33,253 nucleotides of DNA from Thermoproteales archaeon (GCA_027002815.1 JALWZH010000158.1:1-33253); one strand, 5' to 3'; positions 17,741 to 31,951 are shown, numbered from the stretch's first letter. The notes: generated by a model not told the origin, from the sequence alone. Translations and numbers: made by a program.

Positions 17741-18199
17741 CTAGACCCTCACAATCTTCCTAACCCAGAGCCTGGTCCCGAGCCGCCGGGACACCTCCTC
17801 CAGGTACTCGTCCATGCCGCGCGCCATGAGGGCGTGCGCCACCGCCACCAGGTCAAACATGAGCCACTCTGGCGGCACTGTGAACTTGACGGTGGGGTTG
17901 GCCCGGAGGACGCCGTTCTCGCAGTTCGCTGGGGCCAGCGCCATGGCGTACTCGAGGGCCAGTCCCTGCCACGGCACATCCTCCATAACCCCCACAAGGG
18001 TCGTCGCTTCCTCTGGGTCTCCCGGACAGACGTCCGTCCTGACCTCGACGCCCACGTCCACGAACGCCAACTTGTAACGGTCGCCCTCGTACCTGGACAC
18101 GAGGAGGAGGCCCCTGTCCCTCACGAGGAAAACGGCCCTTTCCCCCTCCCCGAGCCTGGCCAACCTGAACAGGGCCTCCCGAGAGTCCACCTCCTCCAT
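17741..18199 (-). CDS. Third gene of the dsr operon, unknown function
   Basis: The 152-residue protein starts MEEVDSREALFRLARLGEGE at an ATG that shares one base with the dsrB stop (TGATG), so the longer open frame is rejected. The fold looks alpha/beta: strands AVFLVRDRGLLLVSRYE and YKLAFVDVGVEV, then the helical EWLMFDLVAVAHALMARG, then WVRKIVRV. There are two isolated Cys and no iron-sulfur pattern, signal or membrane helix. In Pyrobaculum islandicum the dsrAB genes are followed by a gene called dsrG and then dsrC. This gene holds the dsrG place, but I cannot confirm homology, and it lacks the conserved C-terminal Cys arm of DsrC. A role in sulfite reductase assembly or function is inferred from coupling. 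Confidence 0.65.
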   Translation of the reverse strand: MEEVDSREALFRLARLGEGERAVFLVRDRGLLLVSRYEGDRYKLAFVDVGVEVRTDVCPGDPEEATTLVGVMEDVPWQGLALEYAMALAPANCENGVLRANPTVKFTVPPEWLMFDLVAVAHALMARGMDEYLEEVSRRLGTRLWVRKIVRV

Positions 18200-19344
18200 C
18201 ACCTGAGCGCGTCCCTCAGCGATGGGTAGGCCTCGTCCTTCCAGCGGGTGCCCGCGAAGGGCCTGTCGTAGTGCATGCTTGAGACGGGCACTCCCACCAG
18301 GTCGACGAAGGTGCCCCACCCGATCCTGTCTATCATGTCAGCGAGGCGCTCCCCCTCCCTGGCATGCTCGCGCCACACGTCTATTATCCGCCTCACTATT
18401 GCCGTTATTTCCCTGTAGTGGGGCGGCACTGCGGGCACCCAGGGCACGAGGACGCGCGCAAGGCGCCTACCCACCCCCGTGTTCGAGTACTTGCCGCCGA
18501 CCAGTATGGCGACGCCCACGTTCTCGGGGTCGTAGTCGAACGCGTCGCAGTTCTCCTTGCACCTAGCACAGTTAATGCACTTCTCCGGGACCAGGAGCAG
18601 CCTTATCTTGTCGCCCTCGCGCCTCAGTGTAAGGGCGCCCGTCGGGCAGACCTGGACGAGGAATACCTGGGACTCGGGTATCCTGGCCAGCGCCTTGGGG
18701 GGCGGAAGGCACATGGGCAGTATCTCCTCCCTTATCTTGGGGGGCGCCCCCCACTGGCCCACAATGGCTATGTCTATGCCCGTGCCCCCAGCGCACATGG
18801 CCGGGCACCCGGACACATATATCCTGAGCTTGGCTGGGAGGGTCTTCTCCCCCGTGAAGTACTCGTAGAGCTGGTCTCCAAGGGCCTTGGTTATGCTTGG
18901 GGAGTCTACTACTGCTGTGGTGCAGGTGAGGAAGGCTGTACAGGAATTGATGCCCCATAGGGTGGGTCCCCATCCGCCTACTGGGAAGCCCATCCCCTCC
19001 ACCTCCTCCCTAATCCTCTGCGCAGCCTCGAGACTACCCGCCAGAAACTCTATGTTGCCGGCCATGGTGATCCTTATGGCCCCAATCCCGTGCTTGTCGG
19101 CTATGTCTGCGAACTTCTCAGCGGTGTCTGCACTGAGCCTCGCGTTGGGCGGCAGGGCCACCTTCACTGTGAACACCCTTTCACCGGTCTCCGAGACATG
19201 CTCAATAATGCCATACCCATGGAAACGCCTGTCGACCCACCTCCCATAATTGCGCTTCACGGGCTCCGGCAGGTACTTGTCTAGGTCCACGGGGAACACC
19301 TTGTTGAGCCTCTCGGCCTTGGCCGGCTTCGTGGGCGCCGTCAT
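18199..19344 (-). CDS. dsrB: Dissimilatory sulfite reductase beta subunit
   Basis: The 381-residue subunit pairs with DsrA in an alpha2-beta2 siroheme enzyme that reduces sulfite in anaerobic respiration. The siroheme/[4Fe-4S] ligands are C135 and C141 in CTAFLTC and C180 and C184 in SGCPAMC. The inserted ferredoxin domain is complete, with C233 in CPTGAL and C256, C259, C262 in CINCARC. Conserved stretches MAGNIEFLAG and GWGPTLWGINSC also fit. The start overlaps the dsrA stop as ATGA and the end overlaps the third gene. Size agrees with the roughly 41 kDa known for the Pyrobaculum enzyme. Confidence 0.95.
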   Translation of the reverse strand: MTAPTKPAKAERLNKVFPVDLDKYLPEPVKRNYGRWVDRRFHGYGIIEHVSETGERVFTVKVALPPNARLSADTAEKFADIADKHGIGAIRITMAGNIEFLAGSLEAAQRIREEVEGMGFPVGGWGPTLWGINSCTAFLTCTTAVVDSPSITKALGDQLYEYFTGEKTLPAKLRIYVSGCPAMCAGGTGIDIAIVGQWGAPPKIREEILPMCLPPPKALARIPESQVFLVQVCPTGALTLRREGDKIRLLLVPEKCINCARCKENCDAFDYDPENVGVAILVGGKYSNTGVGRRLARVLVPWVPAVPPHYREITAIVRRIIDVWREHAREGERLADMIDRIGWGTFVDLVGVPVSSMHYDRPFAGTRWKDEAYPSLRDALR

Positions 19345-20558
19345 CTCCCCAGCTCCTCGGAGAGCTTTAGGAACTTGTCCCTTTCCTCCCTTTGGAGCAC
19401 CTTGTACGGTATGTATGTGGGGTTTGCCACGTGCCTGCCGCTGGCCTCCATGCCCAGCCTCCGGAGGAACTCGGTGAAGCCCACCTTCAGTATGTAGTCG
19501 CCCAGCCTATCCTTGGGGACGCCCTCCCTGTCCCACGGCTCTATCACCTTGAAGGCCAGGTCTATCGCGTCCCTCGGCTTGTCGGGGTCCAGCATCGTCA
19601 GGAACCAGCCGAGCTTCGGGCCGAACCTCCCCTTGACGCCGCCCCCCACAAGCACCGCTACCTTCCTGTTGCGGCCCGGCCTAATGGCCGGGAAGGCCGA
19701 CCTAATGCAGTTCATGCTCTTCCTGCACCTCTCCCCGTTGATGATGAGGGCCCTGGACCTCTCGTCCCACGTGATGGCCCTGCTGGGGCACCTCTCCTCG
19801 AGCCTCCTCGGGTCCACCTCCCCTGCCTCGACCTTCCTCCGCAACGCCTCCTGGTCCACCTCGGGGGCCCCCTCCCATATGCCAACCAGGCCGAAGTCCG
19901 CCCTGTTAGCCCTGGCACAGTCCATGGGACAGCCAGACAGCTTTATCTTGAACTTGTATGGGAAGCCGGGCGTTGCAATCGCGTCGTTGACCCTCTTGTC
20001 CCTGTGGAACTCGGCGTACCACGCCAAGGTATCGAAGAGGGCGAACTCGCATAGGGCCGGGCCCACACACGCGTTGAGGGCCCTAATAGCGTCGCCGCTG
20101 CCCCCCACGTCCGTGCCTATGGCCCTGAGCTCGTCCACAAGCTGCTCCGCGTGTTCCTTCCTGAGGTTTATGACTAGGGCCCCCGTCTGGCCCACCACCT
20201 CAAGGAGCCCCACGCCCAGCCTCCTCGAGAGCTCGGCCAACTTCCTGAGGAAACTGGCTGGGAGGAACTTGCCGGGCGTGTGGAACACCCTGAAATGAAC
20301 CTCCTCCCCCCTCCCCGGCACCCACTCCCTTGCAACCCTGGCCAGCACGCCAGTACTGACGAACTGCACGGGCGCCGTGCTGGGCCCCCAAGGCGACTTA
20401 CGTGCCACCAGTCCAACACCATAGACGTGTAGGGGATACCCAGTCCTCCTCAACTCGGACACGTGGCTGGGCCATCTGCCCCCCTCGAAATGCTTAAGCA
20501 TATCGTCGGCCCGTTTCAGAAGTTCTTCGGGCGGGGGAAGATCAGGGGGAGCCGCCAT
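19341..20558 (-). CDS. dsrA: Dissimilatory sulfite reductase alpha subunit, with an altered ferredoxin motif
   Basis: The 405-residue subunit shows siroheme/[4Fe-4S] ligands C164 and C170 in CVGPALC and C210 and C214 in SGCPMDC, the conserved FHTPGKFLPA stretch, and VGQTGALVINLR. The inserted ferredoxin domain is unusual: after C257 in CPSRAI it reads CRKSMNC, where family members have C-x2-C-x2-C, so the middle ligand is Ser281. A single base change would restore Cys. The ATG at 20558 lies 21 bases from a strong TATA box. It is the first gene of the operon dsrA-dsrB-third gene. The product acts in the cytoplasm as terminal sulfite reductase. No dsrC, dsrMK or aprAB is in the window. Confidence 0.94.
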   Translation of the reverse strand: MAAPPDLPPPEELLKRADDMLKHFEGGRWPSHVSELRRTGYPLHVYGVGLVARKSPWGPSTAPVQFVSTGVLARVAREWVPGRGEEVHFRVFHTPGKFLPASFLRKLAELSRRLGVGLLEVVGQTGALVINLRKEHAEQLVDELRAIGTDVGGSGDAIRALNACVGPALCEFALFDTLAWYAEFHRDKRVNDAIATPGFPYKFKIKLSGCPMDCARANRADFGLVGIWEGAPEVDQEALRRKVEAGEVDPRRLEERCPSRAITWDERSRALIINGERCRKSMNCIRSAFPAIRPGRNRKVAVLVGGGVKGRFGPKLGWFLTMLDPDKPRDAIDLAFKVIEPWDREGVPKDRLGDYILKVGFTEFLRRLGMEASGRHVANPTYIPYKVLQREERDKFLKLSEELGR

Positions 20559-22540: not shown

Positions 22541-22642
22541 GCCCCGGTAGCTCAGCCTGGTCAGAGCGCCTCACTGGTAATGAGGAGGTCCCGGACGGCG
22601 TACACAGCGCCGGGGAAAGTTCAAATCCCGGCCGGGGCTCCA
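22541..22642 (+). tRNA. tRNA-Thr(GGT) with a 24-base intron in the T arm
   Basis: GCCCCGG (22541-22547) pairs with CCGGGGC (22632-22638), followed by discriminator T and an encoded CCA. The D arm is GCTC/GAGC. The anticodon stem CCTCA/TGAGG encloses the loop CTGGTAA with anticodon GGT at 22576-22578. The T arm is only whole if bases 22595-22618 are removed: CCGG then joins G and pairs with CCCGG around the loop TTCAAAT. The mature tRNA is 75 bases plus CCA. Introns at such non-canonical sites are a known feature of Thermoproteales tRNAs. Confidence 0.93.
22595..22618 (+). other. Intron of tRNA-Thr at position 52/53 with a bulge-helix-bulge motif
   Basis: The splice motif is textbook: a central 4-bp helix TCCC (22589-22592) with GGGA (22613-22616), a 3-base bulge GGA cut after its second base, a 3-base bulge AAG cut after its second base, and an intron stem CGGCG/CGCCG with a 7-base loop. 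The predicted cuts give exactly the exon ends required by the T arm. The archaeal splicing endonuclease would remove it; relaxed motif sites need the heteromeric crenarchaeal enzyme. Confidence 0.9.
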
Positions 22643-22755
22643 CCCTACCTTCCTTCACTTCGCTACATATGGAAAATTATGAGAAAAACGTAAAAGGGAC
22701 TTGAGATAAATTTAAACGAAACTTTCCACAGAGGATTAATACACAGCAAACAACA

Positions 22756-22765
22756 CTTTAATAAT
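22756..22765 (+). promoter_or_regulatory. TATA box of the epimerase-like gene
   Basis: The element ctttaataat is centred 24 bases before the ATG at 22785, which favours that start over the TTG at 22770. Confidence 0.55.
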
Positions 22766-22784
22766 CTCATTGCTGTTCCCAGCG

Positions 22785-23834
22785 ATGGCGAATCATACAT
22801 CCAAAACTAAACGCTACGTGGGTACTTGTCTTAGATATAAACTGATGTATGTCGTTGCTATAGTGTTTATAATTATAGTGGCACTCGACTTTTACACGTC
22901 GCACATAAATTCTACAAAGGTCATTTCACCGGATAAAAATGGGTGTCCTATGATAAATTACGGCTACCAGGGAGGATATTATATAGGTACCGTCTATAGT
23001 CCGTTAAAACTGTCACAGTTCATACTGGACCAGTATGACAGTTACGTTACGACCGGCGACAGAAGATATAGGGATACCATGCTTAGATGTGTAGACGTGC
23101 TTTTAAGCATAGCCGAAGATAGAGGCGATTTCATAGTATTTACATACGATTTCCCGTGGCCCTACTATAATATTTCTGGTAAATGGGCCTCCTCTATGTC
23201 GCAGATAGATGGCGTACTGGCATTATACAAGTCTTATGAGGTGACTGGCAATTCCACTTACCTCCACTTGGCGGGCAAGGCCCTCAACGCATTTTTCGTG
23301 GACACAGATAGGGGTGGGCTGACCCACTTCACGGAGTATGGTCCCTGGTACGAGGAATATGCCTACCCAAATATTACGGGCCCCTATGTCCTAAACGGCT
23401 TCATGTATACCCTGATAAAACTGTATGAATATTATAATGCGTCGAAAGATGAGAGGGCAAAGTCCCTCTTTCTTGATGGACTTAGGACTCTGAAAGCCAC
23501 GGCGCACATGTTCGATACGGGTGATTGGACCACCTACGATCTTATAGGCACATTATCGCCATGGGCAAAGCACCAGCTTCACATCAAGTTTTCGCGTGAA
23601 CTGTACCACATAACAAATGACGAGTTTTTCTTGGATCTAAGTAATAGATGGGCCGATTATAACCTGAGGTTGACCGGGCTATATCTGGGAGCAAAATATT
23701 ATATAGGGCTAACTTTAAGGCAGTACATGTTGCTACCCTTACCCGCAAAATATTCCCTATTAGCACCTCTGTTATACATATTATTTAAACGGTGCATCAG
23801 CAAAAACCGTCCGCTAAGTAGAACACCGATGTAA
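22785..23834 (+). CDS. Membrane-anchored D-glucuronyl C5-epimerase-like protein
   Basis: The 349-residue protein has an N-terminal signal anchor, LMYVVAIVFIIIVALDF, an outer domain with several aromatic-rich helical repeats, and a C-terminal hydrophobic stretch, YSLLAPLLYILF, followed by basic residues. The domain includes YDFPWPYYNISGKWASSMSQ, THFTEYGPWYEEYAY and VLNGFMYTLIKLYEYY, the hallmark patterns of the C-terminal domain of glucuronyl C5-epimerases, which flip glucuronate to iduronate within a polymer. It would act outside the cell on a surface polysaccharide. Base composition is much more AT-rich than the genes to its left, and the gene lies directly after a tRNA, both suggesting acquired DNA. 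Confidence 0.75.
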   Translation: MANHTSKTKRYVGTCLRYKLMYVVAIVFIIIVALDFYTSHINSTKVISPDKNGCPMINYGYQGGYYIGTVYSPLKLSQFILDQYDSYVTTGDRRYRDTMLRCVDVLLSIAEDRGDFIVFTYDFPWPYYNISGKWASSMSQIDGVLALYKSYEVTGNSTYLHLAGKALNAFFVDTDRGGLTHFTEYGPWYEEYAYPNITGPYVLNGFMYTLIKLYEYYNASKDERAKSLFLDGLRTLKATAHMFDTGDWTTYDLIGTLSPWAKHQLHIKFSRELYHITNDEFFLDLSNRWADYNLRLTGLYLGAKYYIGLTLRQYMLLPLPAKYSLLAPLLYILFKRCISKNRPLSRTPM

Positions 23835-24252
23835 CTAAGGGCTGTAATCTAAACCTTTAATAACCTACATCGAGATATATCTGAAAAGTCTAGGCATGAA
23901 ACGTGTTAAGTGTTGGGATGTTCCCTCGCAGATAGCGGACAAGAAGTACAGCTAAGCTGCACGTATATGGTCCGACACGTTCCAGAATCTGCAGAGATAC
24001 ATGATAAGGCATATAATAGATCTTGTCAGGAAACAGAGGGACGATATGATTCAAGGTCCTTGAAAAGGAGTAACCGCTTTTTATACGCCCAAGATAGAGT
24101 GCGGCAACGTACAAATTGTCTTGTCCCAATTAGGCATTTCAGACCCCATTTAGGCATGTCTCCCAATGTGTGCAATAAGGAAGATAATCTAAATAAAGCT
24201 AAAGGGATCCAAGGCAAGCCTCTTATAGAGAGCCATATTTCTATACTACAGT
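23835..24252. other. AT-rich gap with a possible gene relic on the minus strand
   Basis: No intact gene is supported. The minus strand from 24129 to 23890 reads protein-like, including KIYYMPYHVSLQILERVGPY and LAVLLVRYLRGNIPTLN, but has no recognisable family and no clear promoter. A plus-strand frame over the same bases (23910-24266) is Cys- and Arg-rich without motifs and is probably not coding. The stretch fits the surrounding pattern of decayed polysaccharide genes. Confidence 0.35.
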
Positions 24253-25047
24253 TTACATTATTTTGATCATAATCCTTAAAAGTGTATGTAAAACTTCTAT
24301 TGGTGTATGTTCCCTTGGAAGCTCCTCCACTATTCTTTCCCTTTTTACGACCTTCACATTACATGCTAAAGCCTCAAGTGCTGTTAAGCTGAGACTATAT
24401 ATAGATAATTTATCTATTAGATACCAGAACTTATTAAATACATATGGCATATACCTATACGGAATTGGTCTCTTGTTCCTGTCATGTATGTAGAGCTTTA
24501 ACTTCATATTATTGGCTATCTCTCTAGCATAGTCTACATCTCTCAATGCCCAACTACTTGGGTCATATATGTAAATTGCACTTTGGTGTCTAGATCTCAA
24601 GTGTTCCATAGGTCTAAACAAGTCCAAGTTGACGGGATTTGGAAGGTAATATACACCGTACTGTTTGCCCTCATCAAAGAGGTCAGGCGTAGACACCACA
24701 ACAACATCGGCCCTACTAATTATATCAGCTTTGTGTTCCCACAACCCTCTTATATCGCTTCCATGATAATGCAATATGACTATTTTATCTTTGTACAAAA
24801 TCTTTAAGGTTTTTATTAAACGATCCAAACTATGTACATGTATTACGTCATATTGTCTTGCCATTTTAATAGCTTTAACTATGAATTCGGCAGGACTGCA
24901 CCGACACGTCTCGCCGAATATGGTATGCCCAAATTTATCGGCATCACTACGGGTGATCACCCAAGTATCCCATTTCAAAAGCTTGTTCTGGTATAGAGCC
25001 AATGTACTAGCAACACCAGCCGTATTCCATATATGCAATACTTTCAT
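24253..25047 (-). CDS. Glycosyltransferase, GT-B fold (GT4-like)
   Basis: The 264-residue protein starts MKVLHIWNTAGVASTLALYQ and contains YDVIHVHSLDRL, VILHYHGSDIRG, ADVVVVSTPDL and YLPNPVNLDLFRP. These are the ordered landmarks of family 4 glycosyltransferases, where sugar is moved from a nucleotide donor to a lipid-linked or surface acceptor. It is shorter than most, and the C-terminal donor-site E-x7-E helix appears only as SLTALEALACNVKVVKRE. Enzyme activity is likely but not certain. The ATG at 25047 is chosen by the family start. TATA-like sequences lie at 25091-25099 and 25121-25132, so this gene may have a short leader. Composition is AT-rich. Confidence 0.75.
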   Translation of the reverse strand: MKVLHIWNTAGVASTLALYQNKLLKWDTWVITRSDADKFGHTIFGETCRCSPAEFIVKAIKMARQYDVIHVHSLDRLIKTLKILYKDKIVILHYHGSDIRGLWEHKADIISRADVVVVSTPDLFDEGKQYGVYYLPNPVNLDLFRPMEHLRSRHQSAIYIYDPSSWALRDVDYAREIANNMKLKLYIHDRNKRPIPYRYMPYVFNKFWYLIDKLSIYSLSLTALEALACNVKVVKRERIVEELPREHTPIEVLHTLLRIMIKIM

Positions 25048-25392
25048 CGTTCCCATCCCTTTCTTCTCTGATCTTTCCTGATAAGAGCCTGTTAAAAACG
25101 TGCTCCCCACACCATAAAAGATTTTTAAATATCTTAATTTGCGTCAGCGTAAATGGGTATGGACCCTCACGATTATCATCCTGGAACCATCGCATTATTT
25201 GAATGTAGCGCTTTAAGTAAGAGCGCCTTTAACATGCTCGCTGTCCATAATAAGGGATCATGATATACATTTTACCATGCGTTCACTACTACGCCATTAC
25301 ATTAATGGAGGGGATTCACGTAGTTGAAAGGGGAAGGCAGCTAAGGGTTCCGCTCGGCGAGGGACTTGGAGTAGTACATCCTCCTGAAGGAA

Positions 25393-25696
25393 GGATCTGT
25401 TTGATCCCGCCGCAGCGTACGCATTTTTGAATGATGTACTTGACTTGGCGATATATTCAAGATTGGGCGATATAATGTGCTGGTATCCGTATAGTTGCAG
25501 ATTCATACTCCTCATACTCTTTGGAAGACACCCTCTTACCCATGGAATAGTGAGACATGGCTTTGACATAACAAGTGGTCATATAGCTACCTTTGAGAAG
25601 ATAGGTACACGTCTCTTGTCCGAACTTCTAAGTTCCGTGGGATACATTACCGCAACGATAGACTGGCTTGACAGATGGCGTAAAAGAGACTATTGA
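25393..25696. pseudogene. Sulfatase relic split by an inversion
   Basis: The minus strand from about 25518 to 25393 encodes SMRSMNLQLYGYQHIISPNL, then EYIAKSSTSFKNAYAAAGSN, then RS: the N-terminal sulfatase pattern DSLRxxxLxLYGY-x-x-x-x-SPNL. The plus strand from about 25508 to 25695 encodes LLILFGRHPLTHGIVRHGFD and then LLSELLSSVGYITATIDWLD, the part that should follow it directly. The two pieces are thus head-to-head, meeting at 25507-25519, so an inversion has broken the gene. About 100 residues are recognisable of a normal 400-500. The family hydrolyses sulfate esters or transfers phospho-groups. Confidence 0.65.
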
Positions 25697-25825
25697 ATAT
25701 GTGCGTCTGCCTCAGAGTTGAAGAATATGCATCTGTCCCATATGTTCGAATCGCCTATTTTAATGCTATTAGTTAAATCACCTATACAATAATCTGTATA
25801 AAATATTTTTCATGATTCGGTATTG

Positions 25826-25988
25826 TTATTATAATAATAGTCAATACATAATGACGCAGCTAAAAAGGATCGTGAAACGTCTCATAAGGCGTGGGAAGAC
25901 TTATTTTCTTCTCCCATACATATATGGGATATACCTACCTCGTTCAATGATATACCTACTTCCTTGTAAAGAGATTTTACAATGGTAA
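25826..25988 (+). CDS. Short frame of 45 residues with its own TATA box, possibly a truncated gene
   Basis: The ATG at 25851 follows the TATA-like ttattataataa (25826-25837). The product, MTQLKRIVKRLIRRGKTYFL and on to LPCKEILQW, is basic and then hydrophobic, like the N-terminus of a membrane-associated sugar or methyl transferase of the sort encoded nearby. It ends at TAA at 25986-25988. It may be a small membrane protein, or the start of a gene whose rest was lost. The family is not recognised. The coordinates given include the promoter. Confidence 0.3.
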
Positions 25989-26231
25989 ATGTAACGAATA
26001 TGTAACTCAGATGGTGAAAAGAATTCCCAAATGAAGCTTGGAGAAGACAGGTGGTGCAATATCATCATTAACTAAGGTATAAAATGTGTGGATGAGGTAG
26101 AGCCCAGATACAACGCGTCTATATTCCATGCAGCATGTTCATAGGTGAACTCATGTCATTGCTTGAAAATAGTATTGGGTCTTAAGGTTATTGAAAAGCC
26201 ATAATGTGAATGTTGATTCTGTAATGCTCCA

Positions 26232-26654
26232 TTATCCTGAAATAAGATGTTCAATAAGCTTCCTTGTGGTGGGTGTCAGATCCATGTCTAGCGCATGTTC
26301 AAGTTTGAAGAATCCAGCTTCGGCTGCATCGTCGCCAGCGGCGACATTCCCATGGGCATCAACGAGGAAATCAATGAGCACGAAGTGATATTTAACTCTG
26401 CCCTCCTCGTCCCTTTCTATGTACTGGTCAACGTATAGGAGTCTAGGGTTCGTCCCGTCGAGCCCCGTCTCCTCCTTTAGTTCCCTAATCACGGCATCTT
26501 CAAGGCTCTCCCCCACTTCAAGGAGACCCCCAGGTATGGCCCACTTGCCCGCATTTGGACTGGCCCTTCTCCTGATGAGCAGTATCTTGTCGTCCCTCAG
26601 CACAACTGCCCCCACGCCCACAATAGGTCTCTCGGGATACTCCTTACGCGTCAC
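26232..26654 (-). CDS. Nudix hydrolase, MutT/ADP-ribose type
   Basis: The 140-residue protein has the Nudix box GGLLEVGESLEDAVIRELKE followed by ETGL at about residues 42-65 and the upstream ILLIRRRASPNAGKWAIPGG stretch typical of single-domain MutT-like hydrolases. It could hydrolyse oxidised nucleotides, ADP-ribose or a nucleotide sugar; within a polysaccharide region the last is attractive but unproven. It begins at a GTG 24 bases from a TATA box that also lies upstream of the divergent phosphodiesterase gene. GC content is back to the genome norm. Confidence 0.85.
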   Translation of the reverse strand: MTRKEYPERPIVGVGAVVLRDDKILLIRRRASPNAGKWAIPGGLLEVGESLEDAVIRELKEETGLDGTNPRLLYVDQYIERDEEGRVKYHFVLIDFLVDAHGNVAAGDDAAEAGFFKLEHALDMDLTPTTRKLIEHLISG

Positions 26655-26672
26655 GGTTACGGGCAGCGAGGA

Positions 26673-26682
26673 GGTTAAAATG
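26673..26682. promoter_or_regulatory. Shared bidirectional TATA region
   Basis: The sequence ggttaaaatg is centred about 24 bases from the GTG at 26654 on one side and about 26 bases from the ATG at 26704 on the other. With only 49 bases between the two starts, the genes may use one AT-rich element in both directions. Confidence 0.5.
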
Positions 26683-26703
26683 CCTTGGCTTTAAGCCCAG
26701 CCC

Positions 26704-28122
26704 ATGGGCAAACTCGCCGTCCTCGGCCTTGACGGGCTTTCCTGGCCCTTCCTCAACGGCATGGTTGAGACGGGCAAGATGCCGTATCTCAGGGCCGTTT
26801 CCGCAAATGTGCTTAGGGCCACGTTGAGGGCCCTTCCGCCGGTAACATTCCCCTCGTGGACCAGCATAATGACTGGCGTGAATCCAGGCAAGCACGGCAT
26901 CTTTGGGTTTTTCAAATACAGCAAGGGCACTTACGGCCAGTCGCTCTACACGTCCCTCGATTTGAGGCATCCGCGCGTTCATGAAATGGCCGCCCTCATG
27001 GGCGTAAAAGGCGTAGTGTTCAACCCGATACCGGACTATCCGATTCGTCCAGTCAAAAACGTTGAGATTGTATCCAACTTGTTCTTCGCTCCGAAACCAA
27101 TGTCGTATCCGCCTGAGGCACATGTAAAGTATTTTGGTGCATCTAACTTGCCGCAGGCCAAGGCTGCTGGATGCGACGTCGTGGAATATTTCAGGGAGGT
27201 CATGGAGCTTTACTTGGCTGCGGTTGAGAAGGCCTCGTCAAACGCCGATCTGCTATGGACAAACCTTAACTTTCCCGATGCTGCGTTGCACAGGTGCCCT
27301 AAGATGCTCCGTCAGCCCGATGCGCCTTTCCTTTCCATCATAGACAAAATAATAGAGGTCATGGACAGCAGGTTCGAGTCGTTCATGCTGTTGTCCGACC
27401 ACGGCTTCTCGGAGTATAGATATGCCATAAGCGTGAACGATATTTTAGTGAAGAGGGGCATTGCCAGGCCCGGCAAGCGCAAGCATTTCAGGGAGTTGGG
27501 AGAAGGGCGCTCGGCTGGTATTGGTATCTCGCCACGACTTTATAAGTTCCTCAGAGCGACCGGCGCCGCGCGCGTGTTTAGACTGGCCGTGAAGGTCTAC
27601 AGCAACTTGACCGGTAGGCCCATAAGGGTCTTCACCAAGGCCTGGATAGACGTAGAGACCTCCGAGGCCTTCTTACCCGACAAGTCCTCCTTTGGGCTGT
27701 ACGTCAACGGAGGCCCAGACTCTGTACGACGGGTATATAGGATTCTTTCAGACTACGATGACGCGATATTCGTGCGACCAGCAGAGGAGGTATATTGGGG
27801 AAAATATGTACATTTGGGTCCTGATATAGTAGTGTTTCCGCGTTTCAACAGGGGTTTCACATTACTCAGCGCCGAGGTTAGGGGCATCTCAGTGTTGCCG
27901 GGCAGGCACTATGACCATCACCCAGACGGGGTACTCCTGACGCGTACAGACAGGCTTAAGGGTATTATTGACGTATTGCCGAACTTTGCAGCTACTTCCA
28001 TAGCAATGTACTTGCTCGGCATTCCCCTGCCCAAGTCCCGGGATACGCCTAGAGACGTAGAGAGGTCCATGTTCTGGGACTTCAAGGAGGTTATGTATCC
28101 CACCTTTCCGCTATTGCAATGA
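26704..28122 (+). CDS. Alkaline-phosphatase-superfamily phosphodiesterase / nucleotide pyrophosphatase
   Basis: The 472-residue protein begins LAVLGLDGLSWPFL, where Asp10 is a metal ligand, followed by the nucleophile region PPVTFPSWTSIMTGVNPGKH with Thr48 as likely nucleophile, then FMLLSDHGFSEY with the second metal-binding Asp-His and GRHYDHHPDGVLL near the end. This is the type I phosphodiesterase pattern. Such proteins in archaeal surface-sugar clusters may act on nucleotide sugars or phosphodiester-linked groups. There is no signal peptide, so it is likely cytosolic. It overlaps the downstream glycosyltransferase gene by ATGA, so the two are co-translated. Confidence 0.8.
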   Translation: MGKLAVLGLDGLSWPFLNGMVETGKMPYLRAVSANVLRATLRALPPVTFPSWTSIMTGVNPGKHGIFGFFKYSKGTYGQSLYTSLDLRHPRVHEMAALMGVKGVVFNPIPDYPIRPVKNVEIVSNLFFAPKPMSYPPEAHVKYFGASNLPQAKAAGCDVVEYFREVMELYLAAVEKASSNADLLWTNLNFPDAALHRCPKMLRQPDAPFLSIIDKIIEVMDSRFESFMLLSDHGFSEYRYAISVNDILVKRGIARPGKRKHFRELGEGRSAGIGISPRLYKFLRATGAARVFRLAVKVYSNLTGRPIRVFTKAWIDVETSEAFLPDKSSFGLYVNGGPDSVRRVYRILSDYDDAIFVRPAEEVYWGKYVHLGPDIVVFPRFNRGFTLLSAEVRGISVLPGRHYDHHPDGVLLTRTDRLKGIIDVLPNFAATSIAMYLLGIPLPKSRDTPRDVERSMFWDFKEVMYPTFPLLQ

Positions 28123-29228
28123 TTAGACGCGGCGACGTACACGGGTCCAAACACACAGCGGCGATAGCAGTGCTGTCCTACGAAGCGTCCAAACATCCCA
28201 GGGCCCAGAAGGTATACCTTTCCCTGAGGAGACGTATGTACAATGCCTTTCTCTGGGAGGCACGTAAGCCTGTTAGGCGGGGCCCACGCATGTTGAGGGC
28301 CCTCCTCAACTACCTGTTCGCCTTGTTCGAGGTAGGCCTGATAAGGGCGGACATCTACTGGGTGGAGAACGTGCCCGATGTGATCTATTTACCGCTGGCC
28401 ATGCTGGGAAGAAGGTACGTATATGACAGGCGTAGCCCATGGGCGCTCCACATGTCGGTCGAGGCTGGGCCTGTGAGAAATGCCGTAACATGGCTGGCCC
28501 ATTTGGTTGAGAGGTACGTTGCGTCGCGGTCGGCGGCCGTGACGGTGCCTTCGACCCCCCTTGGACGCGATAATTACGGTTCTAAAAGTGTGTTTGTGAT
28601 CCCAAATTACCCTGAGGGGTCCTTTATGTGTCCCCACAGCGCTGATCTGAAACATGAGCTCGGGGCGGACAGTGAAACTACGGTGTTCCTGTACATGGCT
28701 AGGCTCAGCAGGATAGAGGGGGCCCACCTCGTTCCGAAAATCGCCGAGGCCATAAAGGGGCTCAACGCCGAGATCTGGGTGGCTGGGGACGGGCCGCTGC
28801 GCGGCCTAATAGAGGGGGCAGCCCGCGCGAATCCACACCTGCGCTGGTTGGGCTGGGTCAGGCGTAGCGAGGTGCCAAGGTACATAGCTGCGTCGGATTA
28901 CGGCCTCGTGCCTAGAGAGGAGTCCAGGGCCCGGGTATTCTACACGCATGAAGGTATACAGAAGATAGCCGAGTTCTTGAGGTGTGGTAAGCCCGTCATA
29001 GCCAGCGGCGTTATGCCAACACCGTACTACATAACCGTCCCATCTGCGGAGCTCCCCAGCTTCGTGGCCAGGGTGGCCAGGGGCGAGGTACATGTACGTA
29101 GACCGCCCCGGATACCCACATGGGAGGAATTTTCAGAGCCCGCCATAGCCAATATTGTGTATGGCCTCATTGGTGGCGACCTTGGGGCTTCTGGCCTCCT
29201 CCGAACTCCACCTCCTCGACCTCTATGA
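28119..29228 (+). CDS. Glycosyltransferase, GT4-like
   Basis: The 369-residue protein shows a GT-B layout: the N-terminal part with ADIYWVENVPDVIYLPLA and GRRYVYDRRSPWALHM, a linker VFVIPNYPEGSF, and a C-terminal donor-binding half with FLYMARLSRIEGAHLVPKIA, IWVAGDGPLRGLIEGA and GIQKIAEFLRCGKPVIAS. The PxE-type E-x7-E motif is replaced by REESRARVFYTHEGIQKIAE, still with suitable glutamates. It probably adds a sugar in surface glycan or glycolipid assembly. It is translationally coupled to the phosphodiesterase gene. The last 62 bases overlap the convergent small gene. Confidence 0.82.
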   Translation: MIRRGDVHGSKHTAAIAVLSYEASKHPRAQKVYLSLRRRMYNAFLWEARKPVRRGPRMLRALLNYLFALFEVGLIRADIYWVENVPDVIYLPLAMLGRRYVYDRRSPWALHMSVEAGPVRNAVTWLAHLVERYVASRSAAVTVPSTPLGRDNYGSKSVFVIPNYPEGSFMCPHSADLKHELGADSETTVFLYMARLSRIEGAHLVPKIAEAIKGLNAEIWVAGDGPLRGLIEGAARANPHLRWLGWVRRSEVPRYIAASDYGLVPREESRARVFYTHEGIQKIAEFLRCGKPVIASGVMPTPYYITVPSAELPSFVARVARGEVHVRRPPRIPTWEEFSEPAIANIVYGLIGGDLGASGLLRTPPPRPL

Positions 29229-29571
29229 AGGCCGTGTATTCTATTTTGTCCGGGTCCTTGTCCAGGTAATTGGCGAGGAAGGCCTCCCACGACTTCCACT
29301 CGTCCGGGTAATCCTCGGGCAGCCGAGGCTTGTCGGGTTCCCCCCACAGCTCGCGCCACGCCTCGTACGAATCGTAAACCCATAAAATGGCGAAGTGGTC
29401 CCTGTACCTTCCCCTGAGCCCCCTAAGCACCTTGAGACCGCGCAGGCCCTTCAATCCACCGAACCTTTCCTTTAGGTATCCTGTTATGTCCCTGAGGAAT
29501 GTTTCCCCGTCGATTCCCTGGCGAAGAGTATATATGTGGATGCTGATCACCCCACGTCTACCCTGATCCAT
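29167..29571 (-). CDS. Small protein, possibly a dimeric alpha/beta-barrel fold
   Basis: The 134-residue protein begins MDQGRRGVISIHIYTLRQG at an ATG lying 22 bases from a TATA box. Strands ISIHIYTL, HFAILWVYDSYEAW and IEYTAFIEVEEVEF with intervening helices resemble ferredoxin-like dimeric barrel proteins, but no catalytic motif is seen. The internal KGLRGLKVLRGLRGRYRD is a basic repeat-like stretch. It is convergent with the glycosyltransferase, overlapping its end by 62 bases, so the C-terminal GGGQKPQGRHQ tail lies in the overlap. The function is unknown. Confidence 0.6.
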   Translation of the reverse strand: MDQGRRGVISIHIYTLRQGIDGETFLRDITGYLKERFGGLKGLRGLKVLRGLRGRYRDHFAILWVYDSYEAWRELWGEPDKPRLPEDYPDEWKSWEAFLANYLDKDPDKIEYTAFIEVEEVEFGGGQKPQGRHQ

Positions 29572-29587
29572 GTATTATTCTGTACTC

Positions 29588-29633
29588 GTTATAAATTGCG
29601 TCCCGCTCAACCTAGGACGGGCAAAGCTTTAAC
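29588..29633. promoter_or_regulatory. Divergent promoters of the small protein and wecB
   Basis: On the minus strand aatttataac at 29588-29597 serves the ATG at 29571. On the plus strand gctttaac at 29626-29633 is centred 23 bases before the wecB ATG at 29653. Confidence 0.55.
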
Positions 29634-29652
29634 TTGGGGGGCGTTACCGGCC

Positions 29653-30741
29653 ATGGCCAAGGTGGTCTCTGTGGTTGGTGCGAGGCCCAATTTCGTGAAG
29701 CTCGCGGCTCTGCACCCCGCGATCGCGCGCCGCTTCGACCACGTGATAATACATACGGGACAACACTACGACTATGAGATGTCCAAAATATTCTTTGAGC
29801 ACCTCGAGGTCCCTGAGCCTGACTACTACCTCGGCGTCGGCTCCGGCACCCACGGCTACCAGGTGGGCGAGGCGGTGAGACGGACAGAGGAAGTGTTGTT
29901 CAGGGAGAGGCCCAACATTGTGGTCGTGTATGGGGACACGAACTCGGCCTTGGCGGGGGCACTGGCCGCGGTCAAGGCCGGCTTCCCCGTGGCACACGTG
30001 GAGGCCGGTCTCAGGAGCTTCGACATGTCCATGCCTGAGGAGGTCAACAGGAGGGTCATAGACCACGTCTCTTCGCTCTTGTTCGCGCCCACTGAAACGG
30101 CGGTGTGGAACCTTCGTAGGGAGAGCGTCATGGGGGAAATCCACCTCACCGGCGACGTACACGTGGACGTTCTCATGAGGTGGGTGGACGTTGCTGAGGA
30201 GAGGTCTACCATCATGGACAAGCTTGGAGTCGAAGACAAGAACTACGTACTGGTCACAGTGCATAGGGCCGAAAACGTGGACAATCCCCATAACCTTGGC
30301 AGAATAGTGGAGGTGATTCGCGAGGTCCCTGAGAGGTACGGGCGCAATGTAGTGTTCCCAGTCCACCCCAGGACCCTCACAGCGCTGAGGTCCTTCAGCC
30401 TCCTTGAAAGGCTCGGGGACCCCCGCATAGCCCTCATTGGACCCCTAGGCTACGTGGACTTCATAAAGCTCCTAAGGCACGCGTGGAGGGTCATCACAGA
30501 CTCGGGAGGGGTACAGAGGGAGGCCTACCTGCTCGGCGTGCCCTGCATCGTCATTAGAGACAGAACCGAGTGGGTGGACCTCGTCGAGTCGGGATACGTC
30601 ACTTTGACCGGGTTGGACCCACGGAAAGTGCTGGCGGCCTTAGAAACGGACGCGCCGAGAGAAGGCCCAAGGGACCTGCTTGGAAGGGGAAACGCCTCAG
30701 AAAAGATAGCTGAAATACTTGTGAATAGGCTTGATGTATAG
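29653..30741 (+). CDS. wecB: UDP-N-acetylglucosamine 2-epimerase (non-hydrolysing)
   Basis: The 362-residue enzyme interconverts UDP-GlcNAc and UDP-ManNAc, the first step to ManNAc or ManNAcA units of surface polymers or N-glycans. The family signatures are all present: GARPNFVKLAAL, HTGQHYDYEMS, VVYGDTNSALAGALAA, AHVEAGLRSFDMSMPEEVNR, TVHRAENVDN, and DSGGVQREAYLLGVP followed by RDRTEWVD. Start at 29653 fits the family N-terminus MAKVVSVVGARP and TATA spacing; the open frame upstream overlaps a divergent gene and is rejected. Confidence 0.94.
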   Translation: MAKVVSVVGARPNFVKLAALHPAIARRFDHVIIHTGQHYDYEMSKIFFEHLEVPEPDYYLGVGSGTHGYQVGEAVRRTEEVLFRERPNIVVVYGDTNSALAGALAAVKAGFPVAHVEAGLRSFDMSMPEEVNRRVIDHVSSLLFAPTETAVWNLRRESVMGEIHLTGDVHVDVLMRWVDVAEERSTIMDKLGVEDKNYVLVTVHRAENVDNPHNLGRIVEVIREVPERYGRNVVFPVHPRTLTALRSFSLLERLGDPRIALIGPLGYVDFIKLLRHAWRVITDSGGVQREAYLLGVPCIVIRDRTEWVDLVESGYVTLTGLDPRKVLAALETDAPREGPRDLLGRGNASEKIAEILVNRLDV

Positions 30742-30800
30742 GAGCTTGCAACGCCGTTACGGCAACACACCCGATATCCACCAGAGAATATCGCCACCCT

Positions 30801-30810
30801 CATAAATATC
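30801..30810 (+). promoter_or_regulatory. TATA box of the FkbM gene
   Basis: The element cataaatatc is centred 21 bases before the ATG at 30826, so the gene is likely transcribed on its own and not only from wecB. Confidence 0.5.
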
Positions 30811-30825
30811 TGGAAACGGGAAAAC

Positions 30826-31608
30826 ATGAAAAGGCTGTTGAGGAGAGTTTGGATGTGGGCCAGGATCTGCATGTCCTTCACATGGTTCTCCCCTACCACG
30901 GCGTTTAACATCTCGCTATCGGCGGCCGTGGACATGGCCATGTTCCTCCTGGGCAGGTGGCACAATCTGACCACTGTATTTGGTGGTCCATATATGCACA
31001 GGCAGTTGGGAGCCGCAGTGTACGTGAGGCCAATGACAGAGGACATGTACTACCTCATGTGGAGAAGGGAGGGGAAGATCCACGATCTCTTCGTGTCGCT
31101 CGTGGGTGAGGGGGACCACGTGGTTGATGTGGGGGCCAACGTGGGGTACTACACCCTCCTGGCCGCGTCAAGGGGGGCCACCGTGACAGCACTGGAACCC
31201 GTGCCGGAGACAGCGGCGGTCCTCATGGCTGTTGTGAGGGCCAACAAGCTTGAGGGGAGGGTCAGGGTGGTGCCGGCATGCGCGTGGGACCGGGAAACCT
31301 CACTGGGGCTGGTGGTCCCCGCGGGGAGGGACGATGGGATAGCCACGGGGTTTGACAGATATGAGGGGAAGAGAGTGACCGTCAAGTGTACCCGCCTGGA
31401 CAGGTTGGTCCGGGAAGCAAGGCTAGTCAAGATCGATGTGGAGGGGGCCGAATATGAGGCCCTCCGGGGAATGGAGGGTATAGTGGACAGAGTCCAACAT
31501 ATAATACTGGAGGTCAGCAGACGGCCCCGAGAGATATGGGAAACCTTGAGGGGGTGGGGATTCCACGTGGAGAGGATAGGGAGAAACCACCTCCACGCGT
31601 ACAGATGA
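30826..31608 (+). CDS. FkbM-family methyltransferase
   Basis: The 260-residue protein has a basic, partly hydrophobic N-terminus followed by a Rossmann-type S-adenosylmethionine domain: GDHVVDVGANVGYYTLLAA (motif I), VTALEPVPE with the acidic loop, and LVKIDVEGAEYEALRGME, the FkbM signature D-V-E-G-A-E. These enzymes often O-methylate sugars of surface polysaccharides or glycolipids. Its position after wecB and before a glycosyltransferase relic supports that. The acceptor is not predictable. Confidence 0.87.
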   Translation: MKRLLRRVWMWARICMSFTWFSPTTAFNISLSAAVDMAMFLLGRWHNLTTVFGGPYMHRQLGAAVYVRPMTEDMYYLMWRREGKIHDLFVSLVGEGDHVVDVGANVGYYTLLAASRGATVTALEPVPETAAVLMAVVRANKLEGRVRVVPACAWDRETSLGLVVPAGRDDGIATGFDRYEGKRVTVKCTRLDRLVREARLVKIDVEGAEYEALRGMEGIVDRVQHIILEVSRRPREIWETLRGWGFHVERIGRNHLHAYR

Positions 31609-31614
31609 AAATGC

Positions 31615-31951
31615 CCGTGGAAGAGGGTAACTCTTCACTACCACGGCTTGGACATAAGGGGTAGGTGATAGGAGGGGTATTGGTCAACGGCGCATATCGT
31701 GGTCGTGTCCACTCCGGTCCTTCTGGAGGGGGATCGTGCCCCATGCAACGTACATCCCCAATCCCATGGACACTGACATCTTCAGGTGCCCGTCGCAAAG
31801 AGAGGTGGGCACAGCGATCTTTATCCGTGCCTTCCGTAACACCTTGGATATGGACTTGCTACTGCTTGTCGTGTCCAATAGGCTTGTGTCCAGGTGTGAC
31901 CTCCATGTTTTAAACCACGCCTTGGCCTATGGCCATGTACGTTTCCCGTGA
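31615..31951 (+). pseudogene. Degraded GT4-type glycosyltransferase
   Basis: One frame reads VTLHYHGLDIRGR, then two stops (31666-31671), then STAHIVVVSTPVLLEGD in the same frame. A frameshift near 31735 leads to HATYIPNPMDTDIFRCPSQR and VGTAIFIRAFRNTLDMDLLL, ending at TGA 31951. The order HYHG-DIRG, VVVSTP, IPNP-D-DLF is exactly that of the intact glycosyltransferase at 24253-25047. About 110 codons are left; the N-terminal half is missing. The tail overlaps the promoter and first codons of the gamma-glutamyltransferase gene. Confidence 0.75.
31907..31915 (+). promoter_or_regulatory. TATA box of the gamma-glutamyltransferase gene
   Basis: The element gttttaaac is centred 24 bases before the ATG at 31935 and lies inside the glycosyltransferase pseudogene. 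Confidence 0.55.

Follow-up and report, generated by a model that had tools for sequence, protein, structure and literature searches.

A minimal GLCE-like C5-epimerase homologue in a variable surface-glycan island of a Thermoproteales archaeon

The human D-glucuronyl C5-epimerase, GLCE (EC 5.1.3.12), is the enzyme that makes iduronate in heparin. Why does an archaeon carry a protein of this kind, and what might the protein act on? The question is raised by one gene in a stretch of DNA from a Thermoproteales archaeon (GCA_027002815.1, JALWZH010000158.1; 33,253 nucleotides, here called the window), where it lies within an AT-rich, variable surface-glycan island adjoining a tRNA gene. The first-pass annotation had read the locus as possibly one for a uronate-containing, glycosaminoglycan-like surface polymer, taken here as a sulfated polymer of glucuronate (GlcA) and iduronate (IdoA). 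The gene product is a GLCE-type protein in which the position of the general base is occupied by lysine. We favour, with a confidence just short of even, the reading that it is an outward-facing C5-epimerase homologue acting, now or once, on a surface glycan with an N-acetylated hexuronate. The gene and the codon in question are as follows.

22785..23831, + strand: PF06662 C5-epimerase-like protein, membrane-anchored, 349 residues, GLCE-like helical domain only (Pfam E=6.7e-45; phmmer to GLCE 6e-18)
23568..23570, + strand: codon AAG, Lys262, which stands where GLCE has its general base Tyr578 (alignments)

Fold and family

The protein matches PF06662 (C5-epim_C) with 153.3 bits, against a curated cut-off of 23.3, and is present in a single copy in the 1.63 Mb assembly. 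A phmmer search of the sequences of solved structures returned GLCE only (E values 6e-18 to 1.3e-17). The AlphaFold model, derived from nine sequences, has a mean predicted local distance difference test score (pLDDT) of 80.8, with values above 90 over most of residues 70–290. When this model was compared with the PDB in Foldseek, the top eight matches were all GLCE (best 1.2e-10). Structure prediction against human GLCE, which the first-pass annotation had proposed for the active site, thus gives a GLCE-type helical fold. The window protein consists of this helical domain only and has none of the GLCE beta domains.

The membrane anchor named in that annotation is borne out by a hydrophobic N-terminal segment, whose hydropathy over 19 residues peaks at 2.46 at residue 20. 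The N-terminus is rich in Lys and Arg, which by the positive-inside rule suggests that the helical domain faces outward. Five archaeal members of the family have a strongly hydrophobic N-terminal segment (the window protein, those of genomes G289 and G296, and two in G335). Most bacterial cluster members and the archaeal protein of G157 have none.

Active site

The key residues of GLCE are E499, Y500, N510, Y560, and Y578 (PMC13308652). Among these, the base is reported to be Y578 and the acid E499 (PMC12834895). We aligned 15 divergent rows, and the GLCE row shows the human residue spacing as numbered (10 and 50 residues). E191, Y192, N204, and Y251 of the window protein align with E499, Y500, N510, and Y560. 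The fifth position is occupied by Lys262, with no tyrosine nearby. Tyrosine is found here in 13 of the 15 aligned members, and a euryarchaeal member has leucine. The AAG codon differs from a tyrosine codon at two positions, and the HI(Q)QL motif beside the site has also diverged in the window protein. The first-pass annotation had looked to a loss of the catalytic Tyr and Glu as the result that would speak against it. That loss is partial: the general-base tyrosine (Y578) is gone, whereas the equivalents of the glutamate (E499) and of tyrosines Y500 and Y560 are kept. Epimerase activity is uncertain because of the lysine at the Y578 position.

Homologues

Among 398 genomes sampled from the phylum, 5 have a strong PF06662 match; the other genomes sampled from the host's own family have none. 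Weak matches in order-level relatives, among them a thioredoxin-domain protein (L006), were judged to be helical-toroid proteins of other kinds. A single-protein search of the genome collection gave no close relatives of the window protein; a search with a three-row alignment yielded nine loci. The nearest relatives are 27–35% identical, and the window protein is not firmly placed in the tree. In a tree of 14 rows, a euryarchaeal PF06662 protein (L027, 7839–8783) groups with human GLCE (support 100/98); it has neither the E499 nor the Y578 equivalent.

Homologues with visible context mostly lie in surface-polysaccharide clusters, together with genes for GT4 glycosyltransferases, AsnB, wecB, or nucleotide-sugar dehydrogenases. 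In G157 the PF06662 gene directly adjoins wecB, in a cluster that also holds glycosyltransferase, DegT, FemAB, and DUF3473 deacetylase genes. Two divergent PF06662 genes in G335 (L059, 4555–5472 and 15679–16617) stand around a cluster with wecB and glycosyltransferases, and a PF01943 flippase gene is found just outside it. The bacterial cases comprise a Chloroflexi gene with asnB and a UDP-sugar dehydrogenase gene (L026), a Prochlorococcus gene near a UDP-sugar dehydrogenase gene (L031), and Flavobacteriales genes with many glycosyltransferases and asnB (L028, L032). No sugar cluster is obvious around the members from a Bathyarchaeota genome (G289, L025) and from G296. The G157 locus (L021, 1124–17785) is a large archaeal cluster that resembles bacterial XrtA-type exopolysaccharide loci and has two wecB-like genes.

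Genomic setting

The other features of the island and its right flank are listed here; dN/dS is the ratio of nonsynonymous to synonymous divergence from the congener G001.

22541..22639, + strand: tRNA gene, left edge of the island (Rfam RF00005, 46.4 bits; synteny)
22643..23756, + strand: block missing from the congener, epimerase upstream region and residues 1–324 (blastn synteny and breakpoint sequence)
23839..24273, + strand: AsnB-type amidotransferase pseudogene, two fragments with internal stops (tblastn and own-genome search; the 625-residue gene is intact in the congener)
24253..25110, − strand: short GT4-like glycosyltransferase, 285 residues (PF13439 3.7e-6, slightly under the cut-off; dN/dS 0.13)
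25199..25382, + strand: GH130-like gene remnant covering the first 60 of 381 residues (tblastn)
25408..25518, − strand: sulfatase pseudogene, inverted 5′ fragment (tblastn with the congener's sulfatase, 6.7e-14)
25514..26173, + strand: sulfatase pseudogene, main fragment with stops and frameshifts (tblastn 4.3e-56; 11–18 stops in every frame)
26232..26654, − strand: NUDIX hydrolase, on the island's conserved right-hand flank (PF00293 9.5e-24; dN/dS 0.16)
26704..28122, + strand: alkaline-phosphatase-superfamily phosphodiesterase (PF01663 3.1e-20; dN/dS 0.12)
28119..29228, + strand: GT4-type glycosyltransferase (PF13692 2.5e-9; dN/dS 0.24)
29536..30741, + strand: wecB-type non-hydrolysing UDP-GlcNAc 2-epimerase (TIGR00236 326 bits, above the cut-off; congener ortholog 91% identical)
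30826..31608, + strand: FkbM-family methyltransferase, absent from the congener (TIGR01444 7e-26; synteny gap 30767–31872)

The gene inventory of the first-pass annotation holds: both GT4-type enzymes, wecB, the phosphodiesterase, and the sugar methyltransferase (of the FkbM family) are present, and the congener's intact sulfatase matches the two sulfatase remnants. A gamma-glutamyltranspeptidase gene follows the FkbM gene.

The island starts directly after the tRNA gene, which the congener shares as far as the 3′ end (window 22642). From 22.7 to 26.2 kb the GC content is down to 40%, from about 62%. At third codon positions it is 0.50 for the epimerase gene and 0.39 for the adjoining glycosyltransferase gene, compared with 0.65–0.81 for surrounding genes. 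By blastn, identity to the congener is 91–92% on both flanks and 82–85% across most of the island. The synonymous divergence of the island glycosyltransferase (24253–25110) is 0.70, compared with 0.17–0.31 for flanking genes; the enzyme itself is under purifying selection. The GC shift, the low identity, and this high divergence point to a quickly turning-over surface-glycan locus.

In the congener the order is tRNA, asnB, the same glycosyltransferase, a GH130-like gene (PF04041, 7e-11), an intact sulfatase (469 residues; PF00884, E=2.6e-42), and NUDIX. Its AsnB belongs to TIGR01536 and resembles XrtA/PEP-CTERM amidotransferases as well. All three of the congener's asnB, GH130-like, and sulfatase genes are intact, whereas their window counterparts are broken or deleted. 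Straight after the congener's tRNA gene comes a homologue of window 23757–23860, a stretch that includes the last 25 epimerase codons. Residues 325–349 are thus encoded in DNA that is tRNA–asnB intergenic sequence in the congener. The relic there holds a short stretch like the epimerase tail (LYVLFKLCIGKNR vs LYILFKRCISKNR), which mildly favours a deletion in the congener over an insertion in the window.

Since the presence of asnB, the GH130-like gene, the sulfatase, the epimerase, and the FkbM gene differs between the two species, the island is not a conserved operon. The sulfatase remnants are no sign of a living sulfated-polymer pathway. In this island, surface-glycan genes next to a tRNA gene are seen to change rapidly from one species to another within an archaeal genus.

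Three other origins were considered and set aside. Site-specific integration at the tRNA gene is unsupported, as the window has no duplicated tRNA 3′ end and just 9-base promoter-like repeats. Contamination of the contig is ruled out by the synteny of both flanks with the congener at 91–92%. A viral origin is rejected as well, with a single distant match to a viral contig.

Some further observations concern the surroundings. The tRNA gene (22541–22639) probably contains an intron, since it is 99 bases long and was missed by ARAGORN but detected by Rfam. An open reading frame of 134 residues (29167–29571, − strand) overlaps the GT4 and wecB frames at their ends; it has no Pfam match, is 91% conserved in the congener with a dN/dS of 0.15, and is probably a real gene. 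Left of the island, dsrA and dsrB are adjacent (18199–20558, − strand) and encode the alpha and beta subunits of dissimilatory sulfite reductase, both above the NCBIfam cut-offs.

Substrate supply

The absences reported here refer to an assembly that is 91% complete, and those in the congener to one that is 80% complete. The assembly has one PF03721 nucleotide-sugar dehydrogenase, encoded on contig C137, and the congener has the same count. This enzyme scores 231 bits with the UDP-ManNAc dehydrogenase 4R16, compared with 98–109 bits for UDP-glucose dehydrogenases, and falls below every NCBIfam equivalog cut-off. It is orthologous across the family genomes compared (50–57% identity outside the genus). 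A UDP-glucose dehydrogenase-like gene was not found in the genome. The search for UDP-glucuronate synthesis that the first-pass annotation had proposed therefore went against it, with the only dehydrogenase closer to UDP-ManNAc dehydrogenases. The assembly also lacks a PF01943 flippase and any intact sulfatase or Sulfotransfer_3 protein (other sulfotransferase families were not searched). An oligosaccharyltransferase of the STT3/AglB type (PF02516) is encoded in the genome, on a different contig (C81) from the island.

The N-glycan core of Pyrobaculum calidifontis carries di-N-acetylated glucuronate (PMC8993221). If such a sugar is part of N-glycans in the family, it would explain why an N-acetylhexosamine-type dehydrogenase is widespread there.

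Function

The protein would be a minimal GLCE-fold C5-epimerase homologue, a helical domain alone, held by its N-terminal anchor and facing outward. It may modify, or have modified until recently, the uronate residues in a surface glycan after assembly; this glycan is most likely linked to protein. Given a sole nucleotide-sugar dehydrogenase of the N-acetylhexosamine type, the best candidate for the target is an N-acetylated hexuronate rather than GlcA: di-N-acetylated glucuronate, GlcNAc(3NAc)A, or N-acetylmannosaminuronate, ManNAcA, would be converted to its L-ido or L-gulo C5 epimer. In such chemistry a base would take H5 and an acid would give a proton back from the opposite face. Glu191 and Tyr192, on the acid side, are retained, as is Tyr251; Lys262 would have to take over the role of the base tyrosine of GLCE.

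Several points weigh against this proposal. The base tyrosine shared by most aligned members is missing, and the adjacent island genes are broken. There is no congener ortholog of the epimerase, so selection on the gene is not measurable. Substrate and sidedness are only inferred, as is the closeness of P. calidifontis, which we place in the same family as the host. An inactive or decaying remnant of a lost surface-glycan pathway, with its frame open by chance or kept for binding, is nearly as likely as the reading we favour and a serious contender in its own right. Such decay fits the replacement of Tyr578, for which two base changes are the minimum, and the diverged motif next to it. It also fits the three neighbouring pseudogenes, the origin of residues 325–349, and a gene that was lost from the congener or never in it. 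It fits less well with a stop-free frame of 349 codons amid sequence otherwise rich in stops, or with a fold and four of five catalytic residues that are kept. The adjoining glycosyltransferase is also still under purifying selection.

The glycosaminoglycan-like part of the earlier reading is largely refuted, for the most part on that annotation's own terms, and we regard a sulfated GlcA/IdoA polymer as very improbable; the surface-glycan setting and the GLCE-type fold stand. GLCE homology and the nearby sulfatase remnants and wecB had spoken for it, but sulfatases break down sulfated sugars rather than build them. A GLCE-like enzyme of Bermanella does work on desulfated heparan sulfate (PMC4432689). 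Against this, the assembly shows no route to UDP-GlcA, no intact sulfatase or Sulfotransfer_3 protein, and no flippase; moreover, Tyr578 is lost and there is no conserved operon. Drift to a different reaction with the helical fold retained, such as a hydrolase- or isomerase-like activity on surface sugars, is improbable too, if a little less so. It is suggested by lower-ranked Foldseek neighbours, which are AGE-type epimerases and GH76 enzymes (mannanases), and by a weak PF07944 match. In both sequence and fold, however, GLCE is the clear best match, and GLCE-specific residues are retained.

To our knowledge, C5 epimerisation of hexuronates at the polymer level is known for few systems: heparan/dermatan sulfate, alginate, and the Halobacterium N-glycan. 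The full version of the reading we favour would add a new one, an outward-facing, anchored GLCE-type epimerase with a lysine base that makes L-GulNAcA or L-IdoNAc(3NAc)A in the surface glycan of a hyperthermophile; in this specific form we consider it unlikely. A GLCE-type member in an archaeon with no UDP-GlcA supply in sight would suggest that both its uronate substrate and its catalytic base are different.

Comparison with known systems

The closest structures are human and zebrafish GLCE (PDB IDs: 6HZZ, 6I01, 4PW2, 4PXQ), which share the helical catalytic domain (Foldseek E 1e-10) at about 27% identity. Unlike GLCE, the window protein lacks the beta-hairpin and beta-sandwich domains and has Lys for Y578, and its genome shows no UDP-GlcA or heparosan pathway. 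RED65_08024 of Bermanella marisrubri is also a prokaryotic GLCE-type C5-epimerase (PMC4432689, PMC13308652), likened here by description rather than sequence. It differs in its shown activity on desulfated heparan sulfate.

Agl32 of Halobacterium salinarum, which converts GlcA to IdoA in N-glycans, is likewise archaeal and a single helical domain. The parallel would lie in C5 epimerisation of a surface glycan at the oligosaccharide level. Agl32 has none of the GLCE catalytic residues and acts on a dolichol-linked tetrasaccharide before membrane crossing (PMC13308652). The window protein, in contrast, keeps four of the five residues and has an N-terminal anchor, and STT3/AglB is on a separate contig. 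Because of the retained residues, it is not of the Agl32 type.

The PF06662 proteins of the surface-polysaccharide clusters (L026, L028, L030–L032, G157, G335) belong to the same family and likewise have GT4, AsnB, wecB, or UDP-sugar dehydrogenase genes nearby. Unlike the island in the window, these clusters seem for the most part undamaged, and tyrosine is conserved at the Y578 position of their members.

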